64,000 nt of DNA from Homoserinimonas sp. OAct 916 (GTDB lineage: Bacteria > Actinomycetota > Actinomycetes > Actinomycetales > Microbacteriaceae), in the NCBI RefSeq assembly GCF_003260275.1, contig NZ_QJHB01000008.1, positions 124,001 through 188,000 on the forward strand, given 5' to 3'. Positions 12,136-26,778 of the stretch are shown here, piece after piece (position 1 is the first letter of the stretch; every line of letters starts with the position of its first letter). Position numbers and translations under genes: made by a program. The notes beneath the pieces are model-generated. The model saw nothing but the letters and a program-made list of their open reading frames with translations, had not been told where the DNA came from and made no database searches.

Positions 12136-12315
12136 CAGGTTCCTCCCGAGCAAAGAAACTGACTGGATTACCGGTTTCTGCTGGCTTGATTTTACGCGCG
12201 TCGAATCGCCTCGCCTATGGGAAAACGACGACGACCACCGCCCGAATCGAGTCCGCGGGAGCGGGAGTTAGTGGAGATGAATCTGGATGATGGCAACTCT
12301 ATCCATTGGCGACGC

Positions 12316-12654
12316 TCATACCACCAGGAATGGCCGCAACTCGACCCTCCGATTGCAGGCCTTCGAGCCGTCCGCGGCGAGCTTCAGCGCCACGTCCAAG
12401 TCAGGGGCCTCGAAAATCCAAAAACCGATAACGAACTCCTTCGATTCCGTGTGCGGCCCGGCTGTGAAGGTCGGCTCCGCGCTTCGGCCGTCAACGACGG
12501 TGGTCGCGCTGGGCGCTGCGAGGCCGCCGGCGAAGACCCAGTGGCCCTCGGCCACCATGCGGTCGTTGAATACATCAATGGCAGCCATCTCGGCCGCGGT
12601 GGCGGGGCCGCTCTGGTCGTGGATCACTGAAACCAGGTATTGCAATTCGATCAT
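12316..12654 (-). CDS. YciI-family (YCII-related) protein
   Basis: A protein of about 112 residues counted from ATG 12654 (MIELQYLVSVIHDQSG); the open frame extends upstream to 12741 without family likeness. AGG-AG immediately precedes the ATG, so the start is uncertain by a few codons. The sequence VFNDRMVAEGHWVFAGGL, TVVDGRSAEPTFTAGPHTE and SKEFVIGFWIFEAPDLDVAL follows the YCII-related domain (dimeric alpha-beta barrel, with D, H and E residues in the pocket). Many actinobacterial members lie beside ECF sigma factors, but none is adjacent here. Function unknown, probably cytosolic. Confidence 0.75.
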   Translation of the reverse strand: MIELQYLVSVIHDQSGPATAAEMAAIDVFNDRMVAEGHWVFAGGLAAPSATTVVDGRSAEPTFTAGPHTESKEFVIGFWIFEAPDLDVALKLAADGSKACNRRVELRPFLVV

Positions 12655-13029
12655 CTCCTGTGGTCGGGAAGCCTGCCCTTGCCGAGTGCTCGCCCCTGTT
12701 ACCAACCACTCTGCTCCCTTTCGACCGCAGATCGTAAGCACCCCTTAGCCGGCCAGGCCCCGACAGCTGCTAGGGAACACGCTGCTCGCCCCCGGCAAGC
12801 CACTCGGCAACGCCATGGGGGTTTCGATCATCCCTGTCAGACAAAGTGACCGTGACATCTTCGGGATGTCACTCCTGCGGGCCGAGTCCATGAATGGCGC
12901 CCCATGATCAAGGACCACCATCATTTGCAATGGGCGGAAGTTTGTACGATCACGGTCCTCAGTCTCATCGGGGAACTCCCCCAGGCCGCGCCAAGCTCTT
13001 CAATGTCGACATGGATCTGGTTCCAGGTG
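12655..13029. other. Gap with no supported gene
   Basis: This 375-nt stretch separates the YciI-family start from the response-regulator stop, both on the minus strand. Short frames on both strands lack ribosome-binding sites and recognisable motifs. It should hold the YciI-gene promoter (right end of that gene), but no clear -35/-10 pair was identified. Confidence 0.5.
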
Positions 13030-13662
13030 TTAGATTCTGACGCGGTCCGGGCGAAAGCCGTGCTCGATACCCCACAGCAGCGCGTTGGTCCTGCTGTCCG
13101 CGCCGATGCGCCGATAGCAGTTGCGGATGTAGGTTTTGATCGAATTGATTGAGAGGTATGTTCGCTCGGCGATCTCCGCATTTGAGAGCCCTTGCGTTAT
13201 CAATGCCAAGATCTCGGCTTCGCGCTCAGAAAGGCCCTCCTCCCGGCCCGGCCAGTCGCCAACAATCACTGTCTGGGCGTCCTCTTGCTCGAGGTGGAGT
13301 TGCTTGCCGCCTGCGCGGATCGTCTCCAGGGCAGAAACTAGCCCGGCGGCCGGAAGCCCTTTGGAGATGTACCCGCCTGCCCCGTTCGACATCGCCGATT
13401 CGATGTGAACCGGCTCGAGGGTCCACGAATAGACGACTACCACGCCTACCAACGGGTTCGAGACGAGGTCTCGAACCTCGGACCGGTCTCCGCGGGTGGC
13501 AGCAAAGGTGTCGTATAAGGCGATGTCCACGTGCTCGCCGACCTGCTTATTCAGATCGAGCTCAACGACGTGGATCCTGTTTCGATAAGTGCGCAACATC
13601 TCCGCGACCCCGCGCGCGACCACCTCGTAGTCGTTCACCAGAGCAACGCGCACCGCATCCAT
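13030..13662 (-). CDS. NarL/FixJ-type response regulator (orphan)
   Basis: The start is taken at ATG 13662 (MDAVRVALVNDYEVV), five nt after GGGGA; an ATG at 13683 is possible. The 210-residue protein has a receiver domain with Asn10-Asp11, probable phosphoacceptor Asp51 (DIALYDTF) and Lys101 (GGYISKGL). A LuxR helix-turn-helix follows at about 142-200 (LSEREAEILALITQGLSNAE, SINSIKTYIRNCYRRIG). No histidine kinase gene is in the window, so it is an orphan. It is divergent from the membrane-anchor gene at 13842. Inverted repeats in the shared region (13659-13677, 13697-13718, 13761-13788) are candidates for its binding. Confidence 0.85.
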   Translation of the reverse strand: MDAVRVALVNDYEVVARGVAEMLRTYRNRIHVVELDLNKQVGEHVDIALYDTFAATRGDRSEVRDLVSNPLVGVVVVYSWTLEPVHIESAMSNGAGGYISKGLPAAGLVSALETIRAGGKQLHLEQEDAQTVIVGDWPGREEGLSEREAEILALITQGLSNAEIAERTYLSINSIKTYIRNCYRRIGADSRTNALLWGIEHGFRPDRVRI

Positions 13663-13696
13663 ATCCCCACGATATGGGATCACGCGGTTCGCGCAA

Positions 13697-13718
13697 GGTT
13701 CACCCTTTGGGGTGAACC
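13697..13718. promoter_or_regulatory. Inverted repeat in divergent promoter region
   Basis: Perfect 9-bp arms GGTTCACCC (13697-13705) and GGGTGAACC (13710-13718) flank TTTG. No T-run follows, so an operator is likelier than a terminator. It is 35 nt upstream of the response-regulator start and 124 nt upstream of the divergent membrane-anchor gene. Confidence 0.55.
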
Positions 13719-13760
13719 GCTCGGTTGGAGTCGGGAGGTAATTTCCAATTACGGGGAATG

Positions 13761-13788
13761 GCGGCTGAAGCTCCCCGCCATCAGCCGC
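13761..13788. promoter_or_regulatory. Stem-loop upstream of the membrane-anchor gene
   Basis: Eight-base arms GCGGCTGA (13761-13768) and TCAGCCGC (13781-13788) pair perfectly around a 12-nt loop. It is 53 nt upstream of the start at 13842, either in its leader RNA or a second regulator site. Which one depends on the transcription start, which cannot be seen. Confidence 0.4.
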
Positions 13789-13841
13789 TATTGGCGCGTG
13801 ACCTCACAGTTCACACAAACCTCAAAAAAAGGAGAACCACC

Positions 13842-14741
13842 ATGGGCAATGACAATCCCGTCATGCTGAACCCAGCCGAAAAGCCGGGCCACGCCGAATC
13901 AAACAGCCCTACCAAGGTGCCAGGTGATCAGCGTCCCGGCAGCGTCGCATCGAGGGCGCCCGACTGGTCGACCGAAGACGGCGTCCACAGGCTCGACTCC
14001 GATGACAGTGAATCCGGCGACGGTTCGAACGGGAAGTCTGGATCGTACGTTTCAGGAGAGCCGCTAGGAACGAGCGTGCCGTCACACGGTGGCGAGGACA
14101 AACTCGAGACGGTGAAGCGCGAGTCACGTGAAACGACGAAAGTTGCGAAGGATCAGGCCGGCAATGTGGCAGAAACTGCCAAAGCCGAGGTGGGTTCTGT
14201 TGCAGCTGAAGCGAAGTCCCAAGCGAAGGATCTTTTTGCGCAAACCCAGCGTGAAATCAAGGAGCAAGCCGATGCTCAGCAAAGCAAAGCAGCGGCAGGA
14301 CTCCGAGCGATGGGTGAACAGTTGCGTGGTATGTCAGATAACTCAGACCAGGGTGGTCTCGCTGTTGACTTGGTCCACGAGGTTTCGGGCCGACTTTCGG
14401 GTGTCGGCTCTTGGCTCGAGCAGCGCGATTCTGGTTCTCTGGTCAGAGAGGTGAAGTCGTATGCGCGTCGCAATCCTGGCACCTTTGTTGCGATCGCCGC
14501 GGTCGCTGGGGTTGTCGTCGGTCGGCTGACCAAAGCGTTGACAGCCGGTGACAACGACGAGTCTGGCGAAAGCCGAATCTCCACGACGACCGAACACGTG
14601 CCGCCACAGCCTCCAATCATGCACGCGGGGGCGGAGCCACTCAGCGTCGCTGACACGCCACTGTATACGCAGCACGCCGCCTCAACGCTCGATGATGTCG
14701 ACCCAGGAAGCACCGGTCATGACCGACGCCACACCCTCTGA
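13842..14741 (+). CDS. Membrane-anchored amphipathic/stress-type protein
   Basis: The ATG at 13842 is chosen because AAAGGAGAA lies just upstream; a longer open frame reaches 13725 but is unlikely. The 299-residue protein has a disordered, acidic and Ser/Gly-rich N-terminus (1-85). A long charged amphipathic helix follows (about 88-160) with LEA/apolipoprotein-like A/K/E repeats such as VAETAKAEVGSVAAEAKSQA. A single membrane segment, GTFVAIAAVAGVVVGRL, lies at 213-229. This kind of protein is common in actinobacterial membrane-stress clusters next to DUF3618 and holin-like genes. It overlaps the next gene by 23 nt, so the set is likely one operon. Confidence 0.7.
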   Translation: MGNDNPVMLNPAEKPGHAESNSPTKVPGDQRPGSVASRAPDWSTEDGVHRLDSDDSESGDGSNGKSGSYVSGEPLGTSVPSHGGEDKLETVKRESRETTKVAKDQAGNVAETAKAEVGSVAAEAKSQAKDLFAQTQREIKEQADAQQSKAAAGLRAMGEQLRGMSDNSDQGGLAVDLVHEVSGRLSGVGSWLEQRDSGSLVREVKSYARRNPGTFVAIAAVAGVVVGRLTKALTAGDNDESGESRISTTTEHVPPQPPIMHAGAEPLSVADTPLYTQHAASTLDDVDPGSTGHDRRHTL

Positions 14742-15132
14742 GCAGAAAGCGGCGACGACATCTCTCGGTGATCTGCTCGGTGAGGTCACCAGGGATCTGT
14801 CAACGCTGATCCGGCAGGAGCTGGCCCTGGCCCGCGCTGAGCTGAAGGAATCTGCAACCAAGGCGGGAAAGAGTGCCGGCCTGATGGGAGGTGCCGGATA
14901 TGCGGCGCTGATGGCAGTCTTCTTTCTCTCAGTGGCCCTGTGGTGGGCGCTCGGAACGCTGATTGGCCTCGGATGGTCGGGCGTGGTCGTGGCCGTATTG
15001 TGGGCGATCGTCGCGCTCATCATGTTCATGGTCGGCCGCAGCCAGCTGAAGCAGATCAAGGGGGCTCCGCAAACTGTGGAGACCATGCAGGAGATCCCGA
15101 AAACGTTGAAAAGAAATGAGGAGAACCGATGA
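14719..15132 (+). CDS. Holin-like (phage_holin_3/DUF1469-type) membrane protein
   Basis: The ATG at 14719 has AGGAAG 9 nt upstream; ATG 14692 is an alternative. The 137-residue protein has an amphipathic helix (LSTLIRQELALARAELKESA, residues 28-47) and two membrane segments (57-79 and 83-106). This is the actinobacterial holin-X/DUF1469 layout. Despite the name there is no phage context, so a lysis role is unlikely. It is translationally coupled with both neighbours (23-nt overlap upstream, ATGA overlap downstream) and probably works with them at the inner membrane. Confidence 0.75.
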   Translation: MTDATPSEQKAATTSLGDLLGEVTRDLSTLIRQELALARAELKESATKAGKSAGLMGGAGYAALMAVFFLSVALWWALGTLIGLGWSGVVVAVLWAIVALIMFMVGRSQLKQIKGAPQTVETMQEIPKTLKRNEENR

Positions 15133-15683
15133 GTGATTCACCCGACGCCATCCGCGCCGATATCGAACGGACCCAGCGAGACCTAGGCGAGAACGTCGAT
15201 GCTTTAGCGGACAAGGTGGACCCGTCCAAAATCATGGACCGTCAGGCCGACAAGGTCAAGAACGCGGTTGGGTCCGTCAAAGACCGCATACTGGGCACCG
15301 ATGACGGCGACAATTCCTCGATGACGGACAGCGTCTCGGATGCGAAGGACCGGGCCGTCGCCAAGGCGCAGGGAAGCCCGCTCGCTGTAGGGCTGATCGC
15401 CTTCGGGGTCGGCCTGGTCGTGGCCTCACTGTTTCCTGCATCCCGCGTTGAAAGGGATGCCGCATCGACCGTGAAGGAGCAGGCTCAGCCGCTGATCGAT
15501 GAAGCAACGGAGACGGCCAAGGAAATCGGCGAGCATCTCAAGGAGCCCGCCCACGACGCCGCCGCCGCCGTGAAGGACGCCGCGACCGACGCAGTCGAGA
15601 ATGTTCAGGCAACCGGCCAGAATGCGGCTCACGCGGTCTCCGATCGAGCGCAAAGCGCGCAGGCGAACATTTCCGACAGCTGA
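15129..15683 (+). CDS. DUF3618 domain membrane protein
   Basis: The ATG overlaps the preceding stop (ATGA). The first 45 residues (DAIRADIERTQRDLGENVDA, then LADKVDP) are the DUF3618 signature. A membrane segment follows at about 84-103 (PLAVGLIAFGVGLVVASLF), then an Ala-rich, coiled-coil-like C-terminus (EQAQPLIDEATETAKEIGEH). The protein is 184 residues. DUF3618 proteins are found almost only in actinobacteria, usually next to holin-like proteins as here. The function is unknown; a membrane-bound scaffold is a guess. Confidence 0.85.
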   Translation: MSDSPDAIRADIERTQRDLGENVDALADKVDPSKIMDRQADKVKNAVGSVKDRILGTDDGDNSSMTDSVSDAKDRAVAKAQGSPLAVGLIAFGVGLVVASLFPASRVERDAASTVKEQAQPLIDEATETAKEIGEHLKEPAHDAAAAVKDAATDAVENVQATGQNAAHAVSDRAQSAQANISDS

Positions 15684-15759
15684 GACCTGTGGATAAGTGT
15701 CTCGCCGGATGTGGTTGCGTCAGTCGCGTCGCATCCCTAAGTGGGAGATCGAGGAGTTT

Positions 15760-16839
15760 ATGAGCACACGAGCGCGTACGCGCGCGGACGAGCCCGGCCC
15801 GCCTGACCCGGAGGACTCACGCAAGGCGGACAGCCCGGTCGATTTGAGCAAACGGTCCTGGAAATATGTGTTCGGCAAGACAGCTCGCGAATTCTCGTCT
15901 GACCAGTGCACCGATATTGCGGCGGCACTGACGTACTTCGCCGTACTTTCGATCTTTCCCGCAACGCTCGCCATATTCTCATTGCTGGGTGTGTTCGGGC
16001 AGAGCGGTGCAGCCACTGACGCGATTCTCGACATGGTGCGGCAGTTGGTCCCCGGTGAACTGGCCAACGCGCTGAAGGGCCCAATCGAGCAGATTGCGAA
16101 TGCGCCGGCGGCAGGGTTTGCCTTGGTGACGGGGATCGTTGTGGCAATCTGGTCGGCGTCGGGCTACGTAGGCGCTTTCAGCCGGGGGATGAACCGAATC
16201 TACGAGATTCCCGAGGGGCGTCCGTTCTGGAAGCTGAAGCCTGCGCAGTTGCTGGTGACCGTGATCGTTCTTGTCCTGGTGCTGATTGTGGTCGTCATTC
16301 TCATAATCTCCGGGCGGGTGGCCGATACCGTCGGTTCGGTGCTGGGCATCGGTGAAGTCGCGACCACTGTGTGGTCGATCGCGAAGTGGCCGGTCTTGGC
16401 ATTGGCGGTAGTGCTGGTTGTGGCGATCTTGTACTATGCCACCCCGAACGTGAAGCAACCCAAGTTCCGCTGGTTGAGCCTCGGCGCGGGCCTCGCGATC
16501 GTGGTGCTCGCGGTCGCGACTTTTGCCTTCGGGATCTATATCGCGAACTTTTCCAATTACGACAGGACGTACGGGTCATTGGCTGGAGTGATCATCTTCT
16601 TGCTGTGGCTGTGGATAGCGAACCTCGCCCTCTTGTTCGGTGCGGAGTTTGACGCGGAATTGGAGCGCGGACGACAACTGCAAGCCGGTATCGCCGCGGA
16701 AGAGAACGTGCAGCTCCCACCCCGTGACACACAAAAGAGTGACAAAGCCGAAGAGCGCGAAGCGAGGGACGTCGATGAGGGCCGACGTATCCGTCACCTG
16801 GCCGAAGAACCGGGCCCGGCGCGCAAGGAGCGAGACTGA
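15760..16839 (+). CDS. YihY/BrkB-family inner-membrane protein
   Basis: The start is placed at ATG 15760 because CGAGGAG is close upstream; a GTG-led frame from 15697 adds 21 unlikely residues. The protein has about 359 residues. The YihY signature begins near residue 40 (REFSSDQCTDIAAALTYFAV, LSIFPATLAIFSLLG). Six membrane segments follow, with GYVGAFSRGMNRIYEIPEGR, TPNVKQPKFRWLSLGAG and ANFSNYDRTYGSLAGVIIFL as family motifs. The tail is charged and hydrophilic. The family is widespread and of debated function (not an RNase). It is the last gene of the membrane module and lies 52 nt before the glycosyltransferase cassette. Confidence 0.9.
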   Translation: MSTRARTRADEPGPPDPEDSRKADSPVDLSKRSWKYVFGKTAREFSSDQCTDIAAALTYFAVLSIFPATLAIFSLLGVFGQSGAATDAILDMVRQLVPGELANALKGPIEQIANAPAAGFALVTGIVVAIWSASGYVGAFSRGMNRIYEIPEGRPFWKLKPAQLLVTVIVLVLVLIVVVILIISGRVADTVGSVLGIGEVATTVWSIAKWPVLALAVVLVVAILYYATPNVKQPKFRWLSLGAGLAIVVLAVATFAFGIYIANFSNYDRTYGSLAGVIIFLLWLWIANLALLFGAEFDAELERGRQLQAGIAAEENVQLPPRDTQKSDKAEEREARDVDEGRRIRHLAEEPGPARKERD

Positions 16840-16891: not shown

Positions 16892-17986
16892 GTGAAAACT
16901 ATCAGTGACGTTCAGGCGCCGCCTATGCGCATCGCCTCCGTCCCATCCGACCATGTGTATGTTCGACATCTTTCGCCTCCGGACGGTAACGATCGGAGCG
17001 TGACGCGACTACCAGATCCGACGCCGCCAGGAGCAGAGTCGGAGCCGTCTCGATGGTGGCCACCCACAATGCTGCAAGCCGACTGGGTACGGGAGCATCA
17101 CCGCGAGTTCGATGTGTTCCACGTACACTTCGGCTTCGACGCCCGGGCGCCCGAAGACCTACAAGAACTGGTGACCGTACTTCGTCAGAACGACAAGCCT
17201 CTTGTTTTGACCATGCACGACTTGCGTAATCCGCATCACCACGGGCGAAAGGAGCACGACGCCCAGCTCGACGTCCTGGTGCCCGCCGCCGACGCGCTGA
17301 TCACGTTGACCGGCGGGGCCGGTGATGAGATCAAACGCCGTTGGGGTCGCAATGCGTGCGTCATTCCGCATCCGCATGTAGTCGAGCTGGACCGGATGTC
17401 GGCGCTGCGCGCGGAACGTTCTTCCGGTAACGGAACTCCGTATCGCGTGGGGATGCATGTCAAGAGCCTGCGCGCGTGCATGGACCCGAGTGCGCTCCTG
17501 CCCGCCCTGGAACGAGCCGTCATCGAGATGGGTGATGCTCGTCTTCAGATCAATGGGCACCGCGACGTCCTGGACCCGCGAGGTGAACGCTATGATCCGG
17601 ACCTGGCTCAGTTGTTGCACGACTGCGGCGATCTGGTCGATGTCAGAATTCATGACTTTTTCGACGATGAAGCTTTGTGGCGCTACTTGTCCTCGATCGA
17701 CGTCTCAGTACTGCCCTATCGATTCGGGACCCATTCGGGATGGTTGGAGGCATGCAGAGACCTCGGCACGCGTGTCGTGGCTCCGTCGTGTGGCTATTAC
17801 GCCGAGCAGGGACCAGTGCAAAGTTATGTGTTCGACGAAGATGGCTTTGACGAGACGACGCTGATCGATGCCGTCCTGGGTGCCCGTGAGATGGACGTCG
17901 AACCATTATCAGCCCTCGACCGTCTCGGGCAGCGACGGGCCATCTCCGCCGCTCATCGTGATCTTTACGATTCGCTGCTCCGATGA
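16892..17986 (+). CDS. GT-B glycosyltransferase (cassette gene 1)
   Basis: A 364-residue protein from GTG 16892; ATG 16925 (MRIASVPSDHVYVRHL) is a plausible start 11 codons later. It is a GT-B type enzyme: FDVFHVHFGFDARAPED and LTMHDLRNPHHHGRK in the N-domain, and HDFFDDEALWRYLSSIDVS, LPYRFGTHSGWLEACRDLG and VAPSCGYYAEQG in the C-domain, where the sugar nucleotide should bind. No signal peptide or membrane segment is seen, so it works on the cytosolic face. The stop overlaps the next start (ATGA). Donor and acceptor are unknown. Confidence 0.8.
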   Translation: MKTISDVQAPPMRIASVPSDHVYVRHLSPPDGNDRSVTRLPDPTPPGAESEPSRWWPPTMLQADWVREHHREFDVFHVHFGFDARAPEDLQELVTVLRQNDKPLVLTMHDLRNPHHHGRKEHDAQLDVLVPAADALITLTGGAGDEIKRRWGRNACVIPHPHVVELDRMSALRAERSSGNGTPYRVGMHVKSLRACMDPSALLPALERAVIEMGDARLQINGHRDVLDPRGERYDPDLAQLLHDCGDLVDVRIHDFFDDEALWRYLSSIDVSVLPYRFGTHSGWLEACRDLGTRVVAPSCGYYAEQGPVQSYVFDEDGFDETTLIDAVLGAREMDVEPLSALDRLGQRRAISAAHRDLYDSLLR

Positions 17987-19047
17987 GAATTTGTCTGATC
18001 GCTTCGAGTCGTTTCCCGGTCCGGGAGCCATATCAGGGCGGGCTGGAGGCGCATACTGCGATGCTCGCAGATCAGCTCATCCGGCGAGGTCACACCGTAA
18101 GTCTCTTTGCGGCGCCGTCGTCTGATGAGCGGTTCAACATCGAACATTTGGACGTCGGCCAGTTCGAATCCAGCACAGCATCTCGTCGCGACGTCGGTGC
18201 GTTGCCCGAGGAATGGATGCGAGAACACCACGCCTACCTCAAGCTGATGCTCATGTTGATCAAAGATGGCCAAGATCGGTTTGACATCGTGCACAACAAT
18301 TCTTTGCATCATCTTCCTGTCGCGATGGCCGGTGCACTCCCGGTGCCGATGGTTTCCACGCTGCACACACCCCCGTTGGCATGGCTCGAGTCCGCAATCA
18401 CCGTGAATACCGGAAACATCGCGTTTACGTCGGTCAGTCGTTACACAGCCAAAGCATGGGCCCATGTCACGCCCTCACGCACCATTCTCAATGGCGTCGA
18501 CACCAACCTCTGGAAGGCCGGCCCCGGCGGGTCGGCGGCCGTATGGACTGGTCGTTTGGTTCCGGAGAAGGCACCGCACTTCGCCGTATTGGCTGCACGG
18601 AAAGCGGGCATGTCCCTGAGACTTGCTGGGGCTCGATTGGACTCAAATTATTTCGAGCACGTGCTGGCGCCCCTGCTGGGTGACGGCATCGAGTACGTCG
18701 GTCACTTGTGCCAACAAGAGCTCGTAACTCTGGTTGGTGAATCTGCGGTAGCGCTGGTTTCGCCGGCTTGGGACGAACCATTCGGGTTAGTCGCGGCGGA
18801 GGCGATGGCCTGTGGCACTCCAGTTGCGGCGTTCGCTCGCGGTGCGTTGCCGGAGATCGTCGGCCGCGTCGCTGGGCGTCTGGCCACGCCCGACGATGTG
18901 GGATCTCTTGCTGAAGCAACGATCGACGCACGGCGAATCGATCGCACGAAGGTTCGTGCGTACGCGGTTGAGCAACTCGGAGTCGACCCCATGGTGGATG
19001 GATACCAGCGTCTCTACAAGTCGGAGATTGAAGGGCCGACCAGATGA
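17983..19047 (+). CDS. GT4-family glycosyltransferase (cassette gene 2)
   Basis: A 354-residue enzyme starting inside the stop of gene 1. N-terminal motif YQGGLEAHTAMLADQL (residue 18 on) is the acceptor loop of GT4 enzymes. The C-domain holds WTGRLVPEKAPHFAV and the donor-binding stretch SPAWDEPFGLVAAEAMACG with the E-x7-E pair, then GALPEIVG. These are the standard elements of retaining GT4 transferases. It overlaps the downstream GT by 4 nt. Family-level assignment is strong; sugar specificity cannot be told. Confidence 0.9.
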   Translation: MRICLIASSRFPVREPYQGGLEAHTAMLADQLIRRGHTVSLFAAPSSDERFNIEHLDVGQFESSTASRRDVGALPEEWMREHHAYLKLMLMLIKDGQDRFDIVHNNSLHHLPVAMAGALPVPMVSTLHTPPLAWLESAITVNTGNIAFTSVSRYTAKAWAHVTPSRTILNGVDTNLWKAGPGGSAAVWTGRLVPEKAPHFAVLAARKAGMSLRLAGARLDSNYFEHVLAPLLGDGIEYVGHLCQQELVTLVGESAVALVSPAWDEPFGLVAAEAMACGTPVAAFARGALPEIVGRVAGRLATPDDVGSLAEATIDARRIDRTKVRAYAVEQLGVDPMVDGYQRLYKSEIEGPTR

Positions 19048-20060
19048 TTGGGTACTACGTGCACCACCACGGGACGGGACACCTGCACCGCGCGATCGCG
19101 ATCGCCTCGGAGCTCGAAACCACCATCACTGGTATCAGCTCCCTCCGCCGTCCTGCCACGTGGGCCGGACCGTGGCTCGAACTCCCCCGCGATGATGACG
19201 GGAGTGAAATGTTTGTCGACGTCGACGGGGGCGGACGACTCCACTGGGCTCCGGAATACCACGACGGTCTCCGGAAACGGATGGCCAAGATATCCACGTG
19301 GATCGACGAGGCAGACCCTGACCTGATGATCGTCGACGTTTCAGTGGAAGTTGCACTTTTGGCACGCCTTCACGGAGTTCCCGTGGTGACAATTGTCCTT
19401 CCCGGTGAGCGGGAAGATCCCGCCCACGAACTTGTGCATTCGATATCTCGGCGCATCATCGCTGCCTGGCCGCCCTCGGTGTCTGGGATGGTTCGAGGAC
19501 TCGATGAGCGGTCATCCCGACTTGCCTGGGTCGGGGGCGTCTCACGTTTCGACCATCGAGACACAGTGGAGAAACCTCCCACCGACGGTCCGCGACGTGT
19601 CGTCATGCTGACAGGCTCAGGCGGGCTCGATGTCACGGCAGACCAGCTCGCGATCGCTCGGCGACAGACCCCCGGCTGGGAATGGATCATTTTGGGAGAA
19701 GCAGGCATTTGGGCTGATGACCCATGGGACTGGCTCACCAGTGCGCACGTCGTGGTGACTCACGCAGGCCAGAACGCGATTGCAGAGGTCGCGGCCGCGC
19801 GCCGCCCCGCTGTGGTGTTGCCGCAGAGCCGTCCGTTCCGCGAGCAGGAGGTTACCGCCGCCGCGATTGCAGCATACGGACAGTACCCAGTGAAGGTGTT
19901 CGATTCCTTTCCAAGCCAAGGGTGGTCAGACGTGCTTGATTCGGTCGCTCGTTTGGATGGGACAACGTGGGAGGCATGGAACGATTGTGCCGGGATTGAA
20001 CGCGCCGTCGCGGTGATCAAAGCAGAGTTGCGGCTCACCGCTGACACGGTACTGCCGTGA
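19044..20060 (+). CDS. MurG/GT28-like glycosyltransferase (cassette gene 3)
   Basis: A 338-residue GT-B enzyme. It opens IGYYVHHHGTGHLHRAIAIA, the glycine/His-rich acceptor loop of MurG-like and UGT-like enzymes. The C-terminal donor motif is HVVVTHAGQNAIAEVAAARR followed by PAVVLPQSRPFREQE, where an H-A-G-x-N/x-x-x-E core is seen as in GT28/GT1 enzymes. No membrane anchor. It is overlapped by 4 nt on both sides. It is probably not MurG itself, because it lies outside any division/cell-wall cluster and the sequence is divergent. Confidence 0.82.
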   Translation: MIGYYVHHHGTGHLHRAIAIASELETTITGISSLRRPATWAGPWLELPRDDDGSEMFVDVDGGGRLHWAPEYHDGLRKRMAKISTWIDEADPDLMIVDVSVEVALLARLHGVPVVTIVLPGEREDPAHELVHSISRRIIAAWPPSVSGMVRGLDERSSRLAWVGGVSRFDHRDTVEKPPTDGPRRVVMLTGSGGLDVTADQLAIARRQTPGWEWIILGEAGIWADDPWDWLTSAHVVVTHAGQNAIAEVAAARRPAVVLPQSRPFREQEVTAAAIAAYGQYPVKVFDSFPSQGWSDVLDSVARLDGTTWEAWNDCAGIERAVAVIKAELRLTADTVLP

Positions 20061-20884
20061 CAGGAACGGTTGTGATCACAGTCGTGCATGGACGACATGA
20101 CCATCTTGAACTGCAGCGAGCGGGTTTGGCAGAATCGTCACGCCCCATAGCGAACCATGTCATCGTGGCAATTGACGATCCCGGGCTAGGACCCGTGGCT
20201 CGCCGCGAGCAACTGCCATATGATGTCATCGCAGTCGACGGATATGCTGCGGGCCTTCCGCTGGCCCTCGCCCGGAATGTCGGCGCTCACGTTGCCATCG
20301 ATGCCGGCGCCGATCTTCTGGTGTTTCTCGACGTGGATTGCGTGCCCTCCAGACAGTTGATTGCAGCGTACGAGAGTGCCGCTCGCATCGTGCCGCAGAA
20401 TCTTTTGTGCGGCCCGGTTGCCTATCTCCCACCAGCCCCTCCCGGCGGCTACCACCTTCGGAGCCTGCACCACTTGGCCGATCCTCACCCGGACAGGCCC
20501 AGTCCGCCTCCAGGACAGCTGCTCCACGACCGCCACCACTACGATCTGTTCTGGTCGCTTTCTTTCGCCACCACGGCCGCGCAGTGGAGTCGTCTCGGCG
20601 GATTCTGTGAGAGTTACCGAGGTTACGGTGGCGAGGACACCGATTTTGCCTACGTCGCTCGCGAGCGTCAATGCGCGCTGACGTGGGTCGGAAGCGCTCG
20701 CGCGTTCCATCAACATCACTGGGTGAGTTCGCCGCCCATTGAGCATTTGGAAGATATTGTCCGAAACGCTTCGGTGTTCTACCAGCGCTGGGGTCGCTGG
20801 CCGATGGGCGGCTGGCTAGAACAATTCAGCCGACGAGGATTGGTCGAGTGGACCGAACACTCGCTGCAGATCAGCGGTGACTGA
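20057..20884 (+). CDS. GT2-family (GT-A) glycosyltransferase (cassette gene 4)
   Basis: A 275-residue protein from GTG 20057, overlapping the previous stop (GTGA). It shows GT-A features: TVVITVVHGRHDHL, the metal-binding DVDCVPS motif near residue 94, and SRLGGFCESYRGYGGEDTDF, the acceptor-side ED motif typical of galactosyltransferase-like GT2 enzymes. It lacks membrane segments. It closes the four-gene cassette; the convergent LacI gene begins 75 nt beyond, with no obvious terminator between. Confidence 0.88.
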   Translation: MTGTVVITVVHGRHDHLELQRAGLAESSRPIANHVIVAIDDPGLGPVARREQLPYDVIAVDGYAAGLPLALARNVGAHVAIDAGADLLVFLDVDCVPSRQLIAAYESAARIVPQNLLCGPVAYLPPAPPGGYHLRSLHHLADPHPDRPSPPPGQLLHDRHHYDLFWSLSFATTAAQWSRLGGFCESYRGYGGEDTDFAYVARERQCALTWVGSARAFHQHHWVSSPPIEHLEDIVRNASVFYQRWGRWPMGGWLEQFSRRGLVEWTEHSLQISGD

Positions 20885-20959: not shown

Positions 20960-22033
20960 TCAGAGTGACTGGCTCCCGCGGCCTGCCGATAGGTGAGATG
21001 GTCGCGACGAGGCTTCTGTCGTGCGATCGAAGGAACAGCCACATGACTCACCAATCCGCAAAGTGACCGAACCGAACTCCGTTGTCTGCCTTCCGGCAGT
21101 CGCCCCCGGACGCGTGGCTTCCCGCACCACGGCCTCTACTGCCACGGATGCCATCGCGGGGATGCTCTGTACGACAGTGGTGAGGCTCGGGTTGAGGTAA
21201 CGTGCGAACTCGGTGCCGTCGTAGGAAACGAGGGATGCGTCTTGGGGAACTCGGATGCCCAGGTCGGCACAGGCACGCATCGCTCCCATTGCTTGAGCGT
21301 CGCTGAAGGAAAATATGGCATCGAATGACGTGTCTTCCGTGATGGCACGCGCTGTCATTTCGTAGCCGGAAGCGAATGAGAAGTCTCCATGTGCGAAGTT
21401 TGAGCTCGCGCCCGGGACTCGGTCGATGATGGACTGGGCGCCCGTGCTGCGCCGTGACGTGCTGTCGAGCGCCTCCGGCCCAGCTAGGAGTAACACTTTG
21501 CGCCGCCTGTGCTCGAGCAACAGGTGTTCGACCGCCATCTGACTGCCCTTGTGGTCATCCGATTGAGCAACCGCCTTGGGGCCGGAGCGTGGTGTGCGGT
21601 CGATGAATACTGCGGGAATAGTCGGACGTTCTTCTCCGATCCATTCCGACGCGGCGGAGACCACGATGATGCCGTCGACGCGGCGATCCTCAAACGAGCG
21701 CAGGGATTCGCGTTCGCGTTCCGGGTCGTTGTCGGTCGTGGCGATGAAGAGCGCATAGCCACGGTTGCTACATTCCCACTCTATTCTCTCCACAAGCTCC
21801 CAGAAGAAGGGGTTGAGAACATCGGGAAGCAGCATCCCGAGGCTGAATGTTTGGGTCGCCCGCAACGCGCGCGCCACCTGGTTGGGCCGGTATCCGAGCT
21901 GTCGGATAGCCGCCTCGACCTTCTTTCGGCTGAGCTCACTGACGCCGCGTGGCCCACCGTTGACCACATAACTCACGACGGCTGGTGAAACTCCGGCTAC
22001 TCTGGCGACGTCTGATCGGGTGGGTTGTGCCAT
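20960..22033 (-). CDS. LacI-family transcriptional regulator
   Basis: A 357-residue protein. The N-terminal HTH (SDVARVAGVSPAVVSYVVNG, GYRPNQVARALR hinge) is followed by a periplasmic-binding-like ligand domain (LGMLLPDVLNPFFWELVERI, RRVDGIIVVSA, SYDGTEFARYLNPSLTTV). It begins directly after the stop of the permease gene (TAGATG) and so is the last gene of the ABC operon it likely represses. The 47-residue tail after IGESC is longer than usual and unordered. The effector is probably the imported compound or its product. Confidence 0.93.
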   Translation of the reverse strand: MAQPTRSDVARVAGVSPAVVSYVVNGGPRGVSELSRKKVEAAIRQLGYRPNQVARALRATQTFSLGMLLPDVLNPFFWELVERIEWECSNRGYALFIATTDNDPERERESLRSFEDRRVDGIIVVSAASEWIGEERPTIPAVFIDRTPRSGPKAVAQSDDHKGSQMAVEHLLLEHRRRKVLLLAGPEALDSTSRRSTGAQSIIDRVPGASSNFAHGDFSFASGYEMTARAITEDTSFDAIFSFSDAQAMGAMRACADLGIRVPQDASLVSYDGTEFARYLNPSLTTVVQSIPAMASVAVEAVVREATRPGATAGRQTTEFGSVTLRIGESCGCSFDRTTEASSRPSHLSAGRGSQSL

Positions 22034-22873
22034 CTACTTATCGGCCGCCTCGGCGATAGATTGCTTCGAAAACATCTGGAGCACAAACATGATTATTGCA
22101 GGGATGAGAGAAATCATCAGCGCACCGGCAAAGTTCTGCCCGAAGTTGCTCGTTTGCAGTGTAAAAGTCTTGCTCAGTGCGATCGGGGCAACTTGTAGGG
22201 CCGGGTCCGGAGCGATCAAGAGTGGCCACAAGTATGCCATCCACTGGCTCAGGAAGATGATAAGCGCCGCGTTTGCCAGTGCCGGTGTCGACAGGGGCAG
22301 GTACATCCTGCGCAGAATTGAAAACTCGCCGGCACCGTCGATGAGTGCTGCTTCGCGGATGCTCGCGGGGATTCCAAGGAAATGTTGGCGCAAATAGAAG
22401 ATCGCCAACCCGCTGCCTATGCCGGGCAGGATCAGCCCGATGTATGTGTTATTGAGGCCAGCGTCATTGAAGATTTGCGCAAGCGGAACAGCAATCGACT
22501 CGAACGGAATCAGGAAGCCGACCACCACGAGGCCGAACACGATCTCGCGCCCGCGGAACTCCACCACTGAGAAACCATACGCAGCCAGCGCGGAAACCGC
22601 CACTCCGACGATCACGGAAACGACGACCACTATGAGGGAGTTGATCAGCGCGCGGCCAAAATCCAATGGCCCCAACATCTGGACGAAATTGTCGAGCGTC
22701 CACACGTCTGGCCAAAATGTGTTCCAAGACAGTGGGGTAACGGCGTCGATCACGGCATTGCCTGGCCGGAACGCACCAAGGAACATCCAGGCAGCAGGCA
22801 GGATGAATACGAGCCCGACGGCTGCGGCGAGTAGAGTCCACAGGATTCGAACTTGGCTACGCGAGCGGAGCAT
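22034..22873 (-). CDS. Carbohydrate ABC transporter permease (MalG type)
   Basis: A 279-residue inner-membrane protein with six predicted membrane segments. The cytosolic EAA loop (EAALIDGAGEFSILRRMYLP near residue 180) is the ATPase-docking motif of CUT1-family permeases of the MalG/AraQ type. The start overlaps the stop of the other permease by 1 nt. The operon is SBP, permease, permease, LacI, with no ATPase. CUT1 systems of actinobacteria often share a general MsiK-type ATPase encoded elsewhere. Confidence 0.92.
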   Translation of the reverse strand: MLRSRSQVRILWTLLAAAVGLVFILPAAWMFLGAFRPGNAVIDAVTPLSWNTFWPDVWTLDNFVQMLGPLDFGRALINSLIVVVVSVIVGVAVSALAAYGFSVVEFRGREIVFGLVVVGFLIPFESIAVPLAQIFNDAGLNNTYIGLILPGIGSGLAIFYLRQHFLGIPASIREAALIDGAGEFSILRRMYLPLSTPALANAALIIFLSQWMAYLWPLLIAPDPALQVAPIALSKTFTLQTSNFGQNFAGALMISLIPAIIMFVLQMFSKQSIAEAADK

Positions 22874-23757
22874 CAGTTCTTCTCCTTCATAAGCCGGAAC
22901 TGGATGGCAACGATGGTGAGCATCAGCGCCGTGAGAATCACCGTCTCAGCCGCACCCATATTGGGGTTGGAGTACTGGTAGGTCTGTCGGTAGATGTCAT
23001 ACATGAGCAGAGTGGTTGAGCTCTCCGGCCCCCCGCCGGTGAGGACCTGCATGGGGACGAAGAGCGCGAAGTTGACGACCGTGTCTGCTACGAGAACGAA
23101 CAGCAATGGTCTTTTCAGCAACGGGAGTGTGATCGAGAAGAACTGGCGCAGGGTGCCTGCACCGTCAATTTTTGCCGCTTCGTAAACATCGCCGCCGATA
23201 TCGTCGAGTCCGGCCACGAGGAATACCATCCAATAGCCAATACCAACCCAACTCGCAATGGCGATGATGGACCAAAGTGCCTGATCTGGTGACGTGAGAA
23301 AAGGTTGGGAGCCGATCCCGACGAGCCCAAGTAGAGCGTTGATCGGCCCATCGCTTCGCAGCGCTATACCAGCCGCGATACTCGCGCCGACGAGTGGGAT
23401 AGTGGTGGGAATGAAGACGAGCAAGCGCCAAAAGGCTTTGCCGTAAATGCGCTGTCGCACCAGCAGCGCAACAAGCAAGGCAAGACCGATCTGCAATGGG
23501 TTGATGACGACCGCGAACAGGAGAGTCCTCAATATCGTCTGTTGGAACTCCGGAATCGTGAAAAGGTCAACGTAGTTGGCGAGACCAATGAATTCCACTG
23601 AGCCGAGCGGGCCAAAAGGTGCGAAATAGAGGCTGCTGGAGATAGCTTGACCAAACGGCATTAGACGCAATACCACGATAAGTACGATCGCGGGACCGAC
23701 GAATCCCAGGATCGTCAGCAAGCCAGGTCTTAACGCGCTTCGGCGTCTGGTTGTCAC
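22873..23757 (-). CDS. Carbohydrate ABC transporter permease (MalF type)
   Basis: A 294-residue permease with six membrane segments (LTILGFVGPAIVLIVVL at the N-terminus). Its EAA loop is YEAAKIDGAGTLRQFFSITL, near residue 197. The AKIDGAG core and size fit CUT1 importers that pair with the MalG-type partner directly downstream. It follows the binding-protein gene by 23 nt and is likely co-expressed. Substrate is inferred from context only: a nucleoside hydrolase is encoded divergently, so a nucleoside or ribose-containing compound is possible. Confidence 0.92.
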   Translation of the reverse strand: MTTRRRSALRPGLLTILGFVGPAIVLIVVLRLMPFGQAISSSLYFAPFGPLGSVEFIGLANYVDLFTIPEFQQTILRTLLFAVVINPLQIGLALLVALLVRQRIYGKAFWRLLVFIPTTIPLVGASIAAGIALRSDGPINALLGLVGIGSQPFLTSPDQALWSIIAIASWVGIGYWMVFLVAGLDDIGGDVYEAAKIDGAGTLRQFFSITLPLLKRPLLFVLVADTVVNFALFVPMQVLTGGGPESSTTLLMYDIYRQTYQYSNPNMGAAETVILTALMLTIVAIQFRLMKEKN

Positions 23758-23780
23758 GATATCTCCAGCAACCCGTCAGC

Positions 23781-25100
23781 CTACTTCTTGTACTTGGCCC
23801 AGGCGGTGTCCAACTCGCGCTCCGCCGTCTTCAGCGCAGTTGCTGAATCTGTGCCATTGCTGATGTCGCTGAACATGCGCCCTGTAATCTCCTCGAACTC
23901 AAGGTAACCAACAGTGGCAGGTCGCGGTAATGCTGTGTCCGTCTGCTCTTTGATGACCTGCGCCACCTCTTTACCGGAAGGAGTGGTGAAATCGGGCTGG
24001 GTCAGGTAGAAATCGAGCGCTTTGCGTTGCGGCGGCAGTACGCCTCCCGGACGGTACTTTGCGTAGCCGGTGACACCGTCGGCACCATCGACAAGCATCC
24101 ACTGAAGGAAGATCGCGGCGGCTTCTTTGTTCTTGCTGAAGGGGTTCATGCCGACGGCAAACCCACCAGTGCCTGAGTATGCCTCCGCGCCTTTGAAAGT
24201 AGGTTGCAAGGATGCCCCCCAATCAACACTCGACCCATCGAGTACCCCCACGAGGTCAGTAGTAGCCACTTCGAAGGCGGCCTTGCCGGAAGCGAACGCC
24301 GCGTCTGTCTGCTCCGAGTTCACGCCTTGAGGCACCACGCCGTCGGCGAACAGGCTCTGATAGAACTCCATCGCCTCAAGCCAGCCCTTGTTGTCAAGTG
24401 CCGGGGTCAGCATGTCCGTACCAGTAATCCCGGATCCGCCCCCAAGGGCTTCCGGCATGGATTGCAATTGGTAGTAGCGGTCCGGTTGTTGCAGGAGCAG
24501 ACCGTACTCGGCCCCCGCCGCTTGTGCCTTCGCACCATACTCCTTGATCTGCTCCCAGGTGAGCCGCTCATCCGGCGCGGGTGCCGGGATGCCGGCAGCC
24601 GCGAGGAGTTCCTTGTTATAAAAGAGGACGGTGGTCGAGCTACCCATGGGCACGGCGTAGATCTTGTCGTTGTATGAGTCCGCCTCGACCGCCGCTGGAA
24701 AGAACAGGTCATTGTATGTCGAGAACTGAGGCGTGAGGTCCTCAAGGTAGCCACGTTGCGCGAGCGCCGCGACGCGCGGCTGATCGACGTAGAAGAGGTC
24801 GGGGCTGCCCTGTTTATTGCTGACGCGGGAGTCGACCACAGTGTTGAGGTCGTTGAACGGCACGTACTCGTACTTCACCGTTATGGTCGGGTGCTCATCC
24901 TCGAACGCGGCGATGATCTCGTTGATATTTTGTTTGACCGGGTCGTTGATGCCCACGAAGCTTATGGTCGCCGTTGGATCCTCGGTAGGTATCGTCCATG
25001 CCTCCCCCGACGATTCGCCACTCTGCGCACTGCAACCGCTCAAAAGAAGCGAAACGGCCCCGGCGGCCGCGACGATGGTGAGGGGTATGGACTTCTTCAT
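23781..25100 (-). CDS. ABC transporter substrate-binding lipoprotein (family 1)
   Basis: A 439-residue protein with an N-terminal signal ending in the lipobox LLSGC, so Cys23 is the lipidated residue and the protein is anchored outside the membrane. The mature protein is a family-1 (CUT1) binding protein: EDPTATISFVGINDPVKQNI, GSPDLFYVDQPRVAAL, YNDKIYAVPMGSSTTVLFYN and FPAVEA-type helices. AAAGGCGG lies about 6 nt before the start. It is the first gene of the importer operon; candidate operator sites lie 70-90 nt upstream (25171-25192). Confidence 0.93.
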   Translation of the reverse strand: MKKSIPLTIVAAAGAVSLLLSGCSAQSGESSGEAWTIPTEDPTATISFVGINDPVKQNINEIIAAFEDEHPTITVKYEYVPFNDLNTVVDSRVSNKQGSPDLFYVDQPRVAALAQRGYLEDLTPQFSTYNDLFFPAAVEADSYNDKIYAVPMGSSTTVLFYNKELLAAAGIPAPAPDERLTWEQIKEYGAKAQAAGAEYGLLLQQPDRYYQLQSMPEALGGGSGITGTDMLTPALDNKGWLEAMEFYQSLFADGVVPQGVNSEQTDAAFASGKAAFEVATTDLVGVLDGSSVDWGASLQPTFKGAEAYSGTGGFAVGMNPFSKNKEAAAIFLQWMLVDGADGVTGYAKYRPGGVLPPQRKALDFYLTQPDFTTPSGKEVAQVIKEQTDTALPRPATVGYLEFEEITGRMFSDISNGTDSATALKTAERELDTAWAKYKK

Positions 25101-25170
25101 GCGTTACCGCCTTTGACGTAAGGGCGCGCGTGCTGCCGTGCACAAACGCGGGTGAGATGGAAAGTTGAAC

Positions 25171-25192
25171 AACCGCGGTTCTACTCGTGTAG
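25171..25192. promoter_or_regulatory. Candidate LacI-type operator(s) between divergent genes
   Basis: A perfect 10-bp palindrome with central CG, AACCGCGGTT (25171-25180), is immediately followed by CTAC-TCGT-GTAG (25181-25192), a second dyad. Both lie in the 118-nt gap between the ABC binding-protein gene and the divergent nucleoside hydrolase. LacI-family sites typically are palindromes centred on CG, so one regulator could control both directions. This is inferred from position and symmetry. Confidence 0.45.
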
Positions 25193-25218
25193 ATCCGCAC
25201 GGTTGGTAGCATACACGA

Positions 25219-26175
25219 ATGATGTCATCCCTTAAATCATCCGCCAGACCAAAACCTGTTCTGCTCGACTGCGACCCGGGCATTGACGATGCTTTCGCCA
25301 TCTTTCTGGCACTGAAGAGCCCCGAAATCGATCTTGTGGGGGTCACAACCGTGGCAGGAAACCAGACGTTGCCAACGGTGAGCAATAATGCGCAGGATCT
25401 CTTGGCATTCTTCGGCAGCCCGCAGGTGCCGGTGGCATTCGGGGAGGCCCGCCCGTTGCGCCGGGACCCGGTTGTGGCCACGTCCCACGGCCTGACCGGG
25501 CTAGGCGGCCGGACCCTTCCTCGCGTGGCCGGTGAACCGGCATCGCGCGATGGCGTGGGCTTCCTGCTCGACACCGTTTTTGCGCATCGCCCTGGTGAGC
25601 TCACCATTGTTGCGATCGGGCCACTCACCAACCTTGCGCGCGCATTGGAACGCCGCCCCGAAGTGGCGCAGCACGTGCACGAGGTCGTGATTATGGGCGG
25701 CGCAAATAACGCCGGAAACATGTCGCCGGTTGCAGAATTTAATTTCTTCGCCGACCCCGACGCCGCAGCGTGCGTTCTGAATGCCGACTGGAAAATCCGC
25801 CTACTCGATCTGACCCTCACCTGGCAATCCGCAGTACCCAGTTCCATCGCCCAACGGCTTGCCCGCACTGCGGACCCGATCGCGCAAACTTTCAGCGCCT
25901 GGCTTGACTTCTACTCACAGGGCGAGACCACGCCTGGCGCTGATGGCCCTTCGCTCCACGACCCGTGCGCGATGGCTGCCGTCATCGACCCCAGCCTCAT
26001 TTCCACAGTTCCTGCCTTCGTCGCGGTGGAAACGCAAAGCCCGTGGACTCTAGGCGAGAGCGTGGTCGACACAGCTGGCTATTTCGGGCGCGAACCGAAC
26101 GTCCAACTCGGCACCACTTTGGACCGTGAGGGTTTCTGGCGCCTTCTGATGGGATACATTCCCGGCACTGAGTGA
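25219..26175 (+). CDS. Nucleoside hydrolase (IUNH family)
   Basis: A 318-residue protein. The start at ATG 25219 has no strong SD; ATG 25222 is equally possible. The catalytic calcium-binding motif LDCDPGIDDAFAI is at residues 16-28. AEFNFFADPDAA near residue 173 and the LHDPCAMA motif near 236 complete the family pattern, with the essential His in HDP. It hydrolyses the N-glycosidic bond of nucleosides to a base and ribose. The divergent LacI-regulated importer suggests it works on the imported compound, and a permease remnant for a nucleobase follows. Specificity for purine or pyrimidine nucleosides cannot be read. Confidence 0.92.
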   Translation: MMSSLKSSARPKPVLLDCDPGIDDAFAIFLALKSPEIDLVGVTTVAGNQTLPTVSNNAQDLLAFFGSPQVPVAFGEARPLRRDPVVATSHGLTGLGGRTLPRVAGEPASRDGVGFLLDTVFAHRPGELTIVAIGPLTNLARALERRPEVAQHVHEVVIMGGANNAGNMSPVAEFNFFADPDAAACVLNADWKIRLLDLTLTWQSAVPSSIAQRLARTADPIAQTFSAWLDFYSQGETTPGADGPSLHDPCAMAAVIDPSLISTVPAFVAVETQSPWTLGESVVDTAGYFGREPNVQLGTTLDREGFWRLLMGYIPGTE

Positions 26176-26310
26176 ACAGGGTCAGGTTGCCGAACGCACG
26201 TTCTTGCTGCGACGCATGGCGGCTATGCGGGCGCTGCAACGAAAGGACCGTAGTGTCTGACTCGGCGCATTCGCCGGGGATCTGATGGTCTCCGGCTGTG
26301 GAGTCTTCGG

Positions 26311-26778
26311 ATGACGCAAACCATTGAAAAAACACCGACTCGCCCGATCGAGGGTGTGGAGACACGGTCGATCGACTACGTTCCTGCCGGGGAACGCGGC
26401 GGCAGGCTCTTCGATCAGGCGACTATTTGGTTCGCGGGAAGCGCTCATTTGCTGACTCTCGCGACCGGGGCGATCGGCATCTCACTGGGACTTAACTTGA
26501 GCTGGACCCTGATCGCACTCGCCATCGGCACAGTTCTGGGTACGATTCCGGTTTCCGCTCATGCAACACAAGGTCCGCACCTGGGCCTCCCGCAGATGGT
26601 TCAGTCTCGGCCACAATTCGGTCGGTACGGCGCACTCATGATCTGGGCGATGGCAATTATCGTGTACTGGGGCTACGTGGTGATCGGCGGCAGGTCGGTC
26701 CGGTACGGGTATGCTGCCACTCCTCGAGCGTGCGCGGTGAGACCCGCAGGAGGTCGGCGACCTGTTGCCCGGTCATGA
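26311..26778 (+). pseudogene. NCS1 cytosine/purine permease, 3'-truncated
   Basis: The first 125 residues are an NCS1-type transporter: an N-terminal cytosolic part with RSIDYVPAGERGGRLFDQ, then the first membrane helices with FAGSAHLLTLATGAIGISLG and IPVSAHATQGPHLGLPQMVQ, QFGRYGALM. Normal NCS1 proteins are about 450-500 residues with 12 helices. Homology stops abruptly near 26690 (VVIGG), where the sequence turns into the inverse strand of an excisionase-like gene, and the frame then ends at 26778. So two thirds of the gene is missing and the product cannot function. It follows the nucleoside hydrolase by 135 nt, a fitting salvage pair when intact. Confidence 0.8.

Follow-up and report, generated by a model that had tools for sequence, protein, structure and literature searches.

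The stretch of DNA analysed here, called the window, comprises 64,000 nucleotides of one contig of Homoserinimonas sp. OAct 916 (G000:C125:124001-188000) and is part of a 3.64-Mb draft genome. It contains four co-directional open reading frames (ORFs) for glycosyltransferases (GTs) on the plus strand, which are named GTa, GTb, GTc and GTd in the order in which they lie (Table 1). As the original prediction had claimed, four GT genes occupy positions 16892-20884, and all three junctions are overlaps of exactly 4 nt, ATGA between GTa and GTb and between GTb and GTc, and GTGA between GTc and GTd. Such overlaps alone are weak evidence, since three successive junctions on the minus strand of the window (45671-48548, ORFs listed by hand), unrelated to the cassette, overlap by 4 nt as well. 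The start of GTa is uncertain and could be either the GTG at 16892 or the in-frame ATG at 16925 (residue 12); good alignment with GTa homologues begins only near residue 12.

Table 1. Cassette genes and the genes upstream of them in the window
Product	Position	Strand	Basis	Remark
GTa, GT-B glycosyltransferase, GT4-type fold, 364 aa (from GTG)	16892..17986	+	Pfam, AlphaFold2, invariant residues	
GTb, GT4 glycosyltransferase, retaining type, 354 aa	17983..19047	+	Pfam, closest solved chains, invariant residues	
GTc, GT-B enzyme resembling UDP-glycosyltransferases and MurG, 338 aa	19044..20060	+	Pfam, closest solved chains	
GTd, GT-A-type glycosyltransferase, galactosyltransferase-related (PF02709), 275 aa	20057..20884	+	Pfam, conserved residues, solved chains	
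YihY/BrkB-family membrane protein	15697..16839	+	Pfam	52 bp upstream of cassette, possible operon member
DUF3618 protein	15129..15683	+	Pfam	upstream, possible operon member
Actinobacterial Holin-X (PF07332) protein	14548..15132	+	Pfam	upstream, true start probably later (overlap with ORF 13725-14741)

A GTd profile search of genome contigs gave at least 548 confirmed relatives, and the best 80 loci, which are actinobacterial, were analysed. The order GTa-GTb-GTc-GTd was present in 64 of these 80 loci, GTb-GTc-GTd in 9 and GTb-GTc-GTd-GTa in 2, and 5 loci had another or an incomplete order; weak matches to other GT clusters (L034-L036) and a duplicate of L131 (L032) were left out of the locus counts. 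Among the best 80 loci, the full order was seen in genera such as Rhodococcus, Nocardia, Mycolicibacterium, Streptomyces, Nocardioides, Aeromicrobium, Agreia and Janibacter. The 4-nt overlap recurred at 39 of 65 GTa/GTb, 59 of 76 GTb/GTc and 58 of 77 GTc/GTd junctions, where a script chose the starts and junction distances for all loci but the window. Because order and overlap are conserved across loci, the linkage of the four genes exceeds chance. The inter-protein distances, computed over 67 complete cassettes including that of the window, were correlated as well (b-c 0.87, c-d 0.83, b-d 0.77, a-b 0.73, a-c 0.70, a-d 0.57), best among GTb, GTc and GTd and less for GTa. Conserved order and correlated distances support the earlier proposal that the four genes act as one unit, and the cassette is a widely conserved bacterial unit rather than a local oddity. 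Literature searches found no paper that describes the cassette or a pathway with such synteny, so that the pathway, as had been proposed, appears undescribed; it falls within the known broad category of oligosaccharide or glycoconjugate biosynthesis and represents no new category.

The distribution of the cassette is patchy. A GTd match was found in 16 of 296 genomes drawn from the phylum, a search in which eight first-look candidates were scored per genome and misses are possible, and GTc matched at 1e-3 in 15 of 59 genomes of relatives, three of them weakly; G040, G048 and G053 (GTc E 4e-4 to 1e-7) were left out of the relatives' counts. Plasmid records contained relatives of GTd (39), GTc (38) and GTa (7, all in Rhodococcus), and their annotations name GTd 'galactosyltransferase-related'. 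The GTb/GTc/GTd core was found on proteobacterial plasmids, and on those alphaproteobacterial plasmids that were viewed GTb, GTc and GTd are present and GTa is missing. GTa itself seems to have undergone duplication, as a second GTa-like gene is present in some cassette genomes of the phylum sample (L139:7587-9308 and 12649-14094; L140:10335-11414 and 13637-15985).

The four genes had been assigned to four unlike families, which holds for GTb (GT4) and GTc (GT28/MurG-like) and has to be adjusted for the other two. GTd matched Glyco_transf_7C in Pfam at 28.1 bits (cut-off 23), with Glyco_tranf_2_2 under its cut-off, and it conserves D92, D94 and a GYG-[GA]-EDTD stretch. Its closest solved chain is chondroitin synthase, and it also resembles polypeptide GalNAc-transferases and beta-1,4-galactosyltransferase; GTd is therefore better termed a GT-A-type, galactosyltransferase-related enzyme than 'GT2'. 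GTc matched Glyco_tran_28_C (25.3 bits, cut-off 22), and it resembles UDP-glycosyltransferases and MurG, the latter being one of its closest solved chains. The only Pfam match of GTa was PF13439 Glyco_transf_4, at 29.1 bits (cut-off 28.5). Its AlphaFold2 model (pLDDT 92.3, pTM 0.90) has a GT-B fold of two Rossmann domains close to GT4 structures, with BshA as the best structural match (Z 21.9, 322 aligned residues, rmsd 4.5) and ten other structures within 1 Z of it, including sucrose-phosphate synthase (SPS), GlgM and MshA; overall, the model matched many GT4-type structures at Z 19-22, PimA at Z 19.4. A function of GTa could not be read from the fold, since these ten structures tie with the best match. 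H109, K191, R194 and E286 of GTa are invariant in 48 sequences, and at the position of the E-x7-E motif, read by eye, the second Glu (E286) is invariant and the residue eight before it is F278. GTb was placed firmly by Glyco_transf_4 and Glycos_transf_1, and since the GTa model has a GT4-like GT-B fold, GTa and GTb are, to judge from this model, less unlike than the four-family label implies.

When the GTb profile was compared with solved chains, glucosylsucrose synthase (7FG9/8X3Q) ranked first (E 2.8e-66) and tetrahydrobiopterin glucosyltransferases second (E 1e-56), with SPS, MshA and PimA far lower (8e-27 to 5e-24). The first of these, TeGSS of Thermosynechococcus (tll1591, PDB 7FG9/7FGA), extends sucrose using UDP-glucose, its gene lies close to the SPS gene (tll1590), and salt and heat stress raise the levels of sucrose and glucosylsucrose in cyanobacteria, according to PMC9909042. 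TeGSS is a GT4 enzyme with a soluble sugar acceptor, and its UDP-binding Arg179 and Lys184 and its acidic pair map in the alignment to R191, K196, E265 and E273 of GTb, which together with H128 are identical in 36 of 36 GTb sequences. Unlike TeGSS, GTb shares its operon with three further GTs. The second-closest solved relative, the UDP-glucose:tetrahydrobiopterin glucosyltransferase BGluT (PDB 5ZE7), also has a soluble small molecule as acceptor; it scores lower than TeGSS and is a single enzyme, whereas the cassette encodes a GT series. GTb therefore resembles soluble-acceptor GT4 enzymes without being a demonstrated glucosylsucrose synthase, and its family match fails to separate a sucrose-like from a pterin-like acceptor.

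In several relatives the cassette genes are interleaved with, or adjacent to, genes of a second unit (L133, L066, L075 and three sphingomonad plasmids). This partner unit, or module B, consists of genes for an acyl-CoA dehydrogenase (ACAD)-like flavoprotein, a PIG-L deacetylase, a NodS-like methyltransferase and a GT2 enzyme. The window's own genome has a single strong match to the flavoprotein of L066, on contig C104 (E 1.2e-71, 46% identity), where the gene order is flavoprotein, PIG-L (93.5 bits), NodS-like (58 bits) and GT2 (40 bits). PIG-L, NodS-like and GT2 genes also lie beside the flavoprotein gene in 20 of 20 further loci, each taken as 20 kb from among the higher-scoring of 50 genomes with a match. 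The closest group to the flavoprotein is that of the DszC-type flavin monooxygenases, while the nitrososynthase DnmZ ranks lower, and on the basis of the DszC likeness, the weak DnmZ likeness and the activity of nitrososynthases it may oxidise an amine; a literature search on an amine-oxidising role of such a flavoprotein found nothing. A deacetylase and a NodS-like methyltransferase beside GTs are also features of Nod-factor (lipo-chitooligosaccharide) synthesis, although the deacetylase is here of the PIG-L type, and NodB has a different fold from PIG-L. The names NodA and NodC are absent among the families annotated near the cassette, where no search was aimed at them.

The flavoprotein co-occurs with the cassette. 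Among the 296 phylum genomes it was found at E 1e-30 in 13 of 16 genomes with GTd versus 22 of 280 others (Fisher P 4e-11), and at 170 bits or more in 11 of 16 versus 7 of 280; here six candidates were scored per genome and misses are possible. Counted by genus, the only correction for shared ancestry in these tests, the flavoprotein was present in 11 of 13 genera with GTd versus 16 of 180 without (P 3e-9). Among the 59 relatives, 10 of 12 genomes with GTc had it versus 8 of 47 others (P 3e-5), and G040, left out as stated above, also has a flavoprotein match. We conclude that the cassette and the partner unit are very probably two operons of one pathway. They could instead be unrelated accessory islands that share habitats and stress islands, and three observations would agree with this: the units lie on separate contigs or far apart in the window genome and in a set of other cassette genomes, the flavoprotein occurs without the cassette in the 22 genomes just mentioned, and the partner unit of the window genome adjoins a mycofactocin cluster (MftD 699 bits, MftF 377 bits, both over the cut-off). 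The interleaved or adjacent gene orders and the strong co-occurrence, by genus too, make such a coincidence highly improbable. The mycofactocin cluster, which includes mycofactocin-coupled SDRs, ends next to the partner unit (G000:C104, locus L146:24-7402). However, neither mftD nor mftF was found within the 20 kb taken around the flavoprotein gene in any of the 20 other loci, nor in the cassette loci L019-L127 that were scanned. Because of its absence from those 20 loci the adjacency looks incidental, and a place of module B in the mycofactocin pathway was rejected. MftF itself is weakly similar to GTd and to an additional GT of some relatives (GT2g, see below), but the MftF profile TIGR03965 scores GTd at 17.7 bits and a GT2g at 82.8 bits, against a cut-off of 280.

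The ways in which these genes combine were followed in a non-random set of 118 loci that all have GTb, GTc and GTd, includes related plasmids, and derives for 78 loci from the best 80, those most similar to the window GTd. Presence was scored with bit-score thresholds set by hand, and module B was counted when PIG-L, or a NodS-like protein plus the flavoprotein, was present (for L081, on a short contig, PIG-L was the sole basis, and L132 was counted although PIG-L was unmatched there). GTa was present in 96 loci, module B in 10, an SPS-like fusion in 5 and an extra GT pair (GTf/GT2g) in 27. Within one stretch module B mostly excludes GTa, which is missing from 8 of the 10 module-B loci (Fisher P 1.5e-5). 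Since L132 and L133 hold both, GTa and module B are not strict alternatives but combinable parts. L133 has ten genes on one strand, for catalase, ACAD-like, PIG-L/NodS, WcbI, GT, GT2-like, GT2, GTb, GTc and GTd, with junctions of, in order, -4, -4, -4, -4, -8, -4, -1, -4 and +22, so that seven of the nine are overlaps of 4 or 8 nt; the catalase gene, which reaches the edge of the stretch, directly precedes and overlaps the flavoprotein gene, and GTa adjoins GTd on the opposite strand. The three sphingomonad plasmids have the order catalase, GTb, GT2, GTc, ACAD-like, PIG-L, NodS-like, GTd. On sphingomonad megaplasmids a Crp/Fnr regulator, catalase and the GT/ACAD/PIG-L/NodS operon form a block (L021:4165-12813, L046:5725-14211, L047:5635-14247).

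Five alphaproteobacterial plasmids (Sulfitobacter, Croceicoccus, Paracoccus, Sphingomonas and Roseomonas) carry beside GTb, GTc and GTd an extra gene annotated as HAD hydrolase, and all five genes match a profile built from them. Pfam finds in two of the five a GT4 domain plus sucrose-6-phosphate phosphatase, and the best NCBIfam match of the three examined in that database is the SPS GT domain, at 309-322 bits with a cut-off of 576. The gene is thus SPS-like, though below the equivalog line, and it gives these relatives of the cassette an SPS-like partner gene comparable to the one beside TeGSS. Other genes beside the core are a sulfotransferase in Croceicoccus (L022:12962-13765) and, in Sphingomonas, a polysaccharide pyruvyl transferase plus a GT2 (L042:13124-14961). 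A six-GT pathway was considered, as some relatives have two divergent GTs, and was dropped: one of them was unmatched in the window genome, in a search without positive control. The presence of tailoring enzymes raises the alternative that the product is not a free oligosaccharide but a glycosylated small molecule, such as a pterin, a redox cofactor or an antibiotic-like aglycone. A deacetylase, a methyltransferase and a DszC-like flavoprotein are typical of tailoring, tetrahydrobiopterin is the acceptor of the second-closest solved GTb relatives, and the structural neighbours of GTa include MshA and BshA, makers of thiol cofactors. Nevertheless, no aglycone-forming family stands out among the annotated recurrent flanking families described below, and the SPS/phosphatase-like fusion in five loci indicates a sugar primer, so that we consider this alternative unlikely.

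Recurrent flanking families were those present in at least 4 of the best 80 loci, 35 in total, and representatives of 27 were annotated, three of which had no Pfam match. They include SDR proteins (21 loci), zinc alcohol dehydrogenases (17), SigB/SigF-type factors (12), GAF-ANTAR proteins (11) and long catalases (8). None of the 27 is a flippase, polymerase, priming, ligase or lipid-carrier family, and among the window proteins scanned no flippase, polymerase, polysaccharide transporter or priming enzyme is adjacent to the cassette. Also, none of GTa-d shows a clear transmembrane segment, their Kyte-Doolittle means over 19 residues peaking at 1.27-1.82. The earlier view of the cassette as unaccompanied is not supported in that form, as a modifying partner unit exists on another contig and shares a locus with it elsewhere. 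The lipid acceptor that had been suggested is possible but not favoured, because of the lack of lipid-carrier, flippase and polymerase neighbours and because the solved enzymes nearest to GTb act on soluble acceptors. The cassette differs from the imp cluster of Actinoplanes missouriensis, likewise an actinobacterial cluster with four GTs (three GT4, one GT2). According to PMC12691653, imp encodes integral membrane proteins too, three in number, from which its authors conclude that a Wzx/Wzy-dependent route is used, whereas the cassette has no such proteins and other GT families.

A link with stress is suggested by the setting of the cassette in relatives. In 26 cassette genomes, with a genome-wide control, the 10 kb around the cassette contained 3 of 7 long catalases (expected 0.034, P 6e-6) and, a weaker enrichment, 3 of 37 SigBFG factors (expected 0.157, P 6e-4). 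A long catalase was also present in 9 of the 10 module-B loci, within the stretch taken. On annotated Rhodococcus megaplasmids the cassette lies within 15 kb of genes for SigB/SigF factors, their ATP-binding partners, TspO and DUF4383 proteins, and about 1 to 9 kb from YihY. A YihY/DUF3618 pair is annotated upstream of the cassette in L019 too. Nevertheless, YihY/BrkB was rejected as a constant partner, as only 1 of 82 copies lay within 10 kb of the cassette in the 26 genomes, not above chance (expected 0.42, P 0.34). In Agreia (L049, L052, L116, L119) an ECF-type sigma factor gene lies 3' of GTd and is followed by one for an RskA-type anti-sigma factor, another possible regulatory link.

The conserved assembly of these enzymes is well supported; we infer its acceptor, sugars and role. 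In the interpretation that we prefer, and to which we give about an even chance, eight cytosolic enzymes build a short, modified, probably soluble oligosaccharide linked to stress. The cassette would be one of two operons in this single pathway, acting on a small, probably soluble acceptor. GTa would start or prime the chain, a role suggested by its family and by the five GTa-less alphaproteobacterial versions, which hold the SPS/phosphatase-like fusion instead. GTb, GTc and GTd would contribute one sugar apiece, taken from nucleotide-sugar donors, and the partner GT2 an N-acetylhexosamine, which would then be deacetylated by PIG-L, methylated by the NodS-like enzyme and oxidised by the flavoprotein, as their families suggest. 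The oligosaccharide of up to four residues that had been proposed would fit the cassette alone, but a longer chain could result if the partner GT2 and other add-on GTs act on it. Because there is no lipid carrier, flippase or polymerase among the annotated neighbours and no clear transmembrane segment in GTa-d, the product may be held inside the cell, where it could serve as stress protectant or antioxidant; this is the weakest step. A bolder version, which we find rather unlikely, is that of a hitherto unrecognised modular pathway spread horizontally through Actinomycetota and Proteobacteria, whose oligosaccharide with an N-methylated, N- or C-oxidised amino sugar is tied to catalase and, under oxidative stress or desiccation, either protects the cell from within or functions as a redox-active sugar.

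Several results weigh against the preferred interpretation. Two of the three sucrose contacts of TeGSS, Trp10 and Tyr18, are lost in the 36 GTb sequences: at the Trp10 position 30 of the 36 have R, 3 have K and none has Trp, and at the Tyr18 position none has Tyr. Sucrose-6-phosphate phosphatase (PF05116) was unmatched at 1e-10 in the window genome, where sucrose synthase was not searched for, and matched partially in 3 of the 26 cassette genomes; the missing match and the lost contacts make sucrose an improbable acceptor in the window organism. Often a single stretch does not contain all eight genes, and the cassette genomes G026 and G042 (relatives) and G278, G298 and G341 (phylum) lack a flavoprotein match. 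The stress link rests on relatives and not on the window genome, because the latter lacks these markers: it has no long catalase, and its best SigBFG match reaches 133 bits with a cut-off of 234. GTTT-N13-17-GGGTA, which we take to be the SigB/SigF-type promoter pattern, had no match in the window, a weak test with 0.44 expected by chance. Any stress marker, with the window's YihY counted, was present in 24 of 69 GTabcd loci without GTf versus 4 of 27 with GTf, a difference short of significance (P 0.08), and a sigma factor or catalase alone in 18 of 69 plain cassettes versus 3 of 27 with the GTf pair. Finally, an ABC-transporter ATPase family recurs in 7 of the 80 loci and an Na+/H+ exchanger family in 4, and 20 of the 27 loci that have the GTf add-on also contain a polysaccharide gene of the WcbI family.

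The ABC-transporter genes, the GTf/GT2g pair of 27 loci and the WcbI genes found with it would agree with a cell-envelope glycolipid head group or surface glycan as product, whose lipid acceptor and flippase would be encoded elsewhere in the genome, as would the position of MurG among the closest solved chains of GTc, that of PimA among the structural neighbours of GTa, and the YihY/BrkB membrane protein that precedes the window cassette. However, the annotated recurrent families contain no flippase, polymerase, priming or ligase family, GTa-d are without a clear membrane anchor, and the soluble-acceptor relatives of GTb score far above PimA (E 2.8e-66 versus 4.7e-24), for which reasons we regard an envelope product as possible but doubtful.

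With regard to the surroundings in the window, the Holin-X gene upstream of the cassette probably starts downstream of 14548, because the ORF overlaps ORF 13725-14741. Downstream of the cassette, on the opposite strand, lie a LacI regulator gene and an operon for a solute-import type ABC transporter. The GC content at third codon positions (GC3) of GTa-d is 0.64-0.67, compared to a mean of 0.78 (sd 0.06) in 26 other, hand-picked window ORFs, and it is also low, 0.68-0.73, in the window ORFs from 20960 to 28560; this low GC3 fits an accessory region. Elsewhere in the window, a 741-aa protein (9928-12153, minus strand) has a papain-family cysteine protease domain confined to residues 93-306, and no further Pfam match at 0.01.

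Genes for glycosyltransferases are many and seldom assigned. On the basis of conserved order, co-occurrence and shared loci, the vague labels glycosyltransferase, galactosyltransferase-related, PIG-L deacetylase, SAM methyltransferase and acyl-CoA dehydrogenase can here be joined into one testable pathway. This predicts that, from Rhodococcus to sphingomonads, one and the same metabolite would be lost when either operon is deleted, and that catalase and, in some genomes, SigB/SigF factors would be linked with this metabolite.

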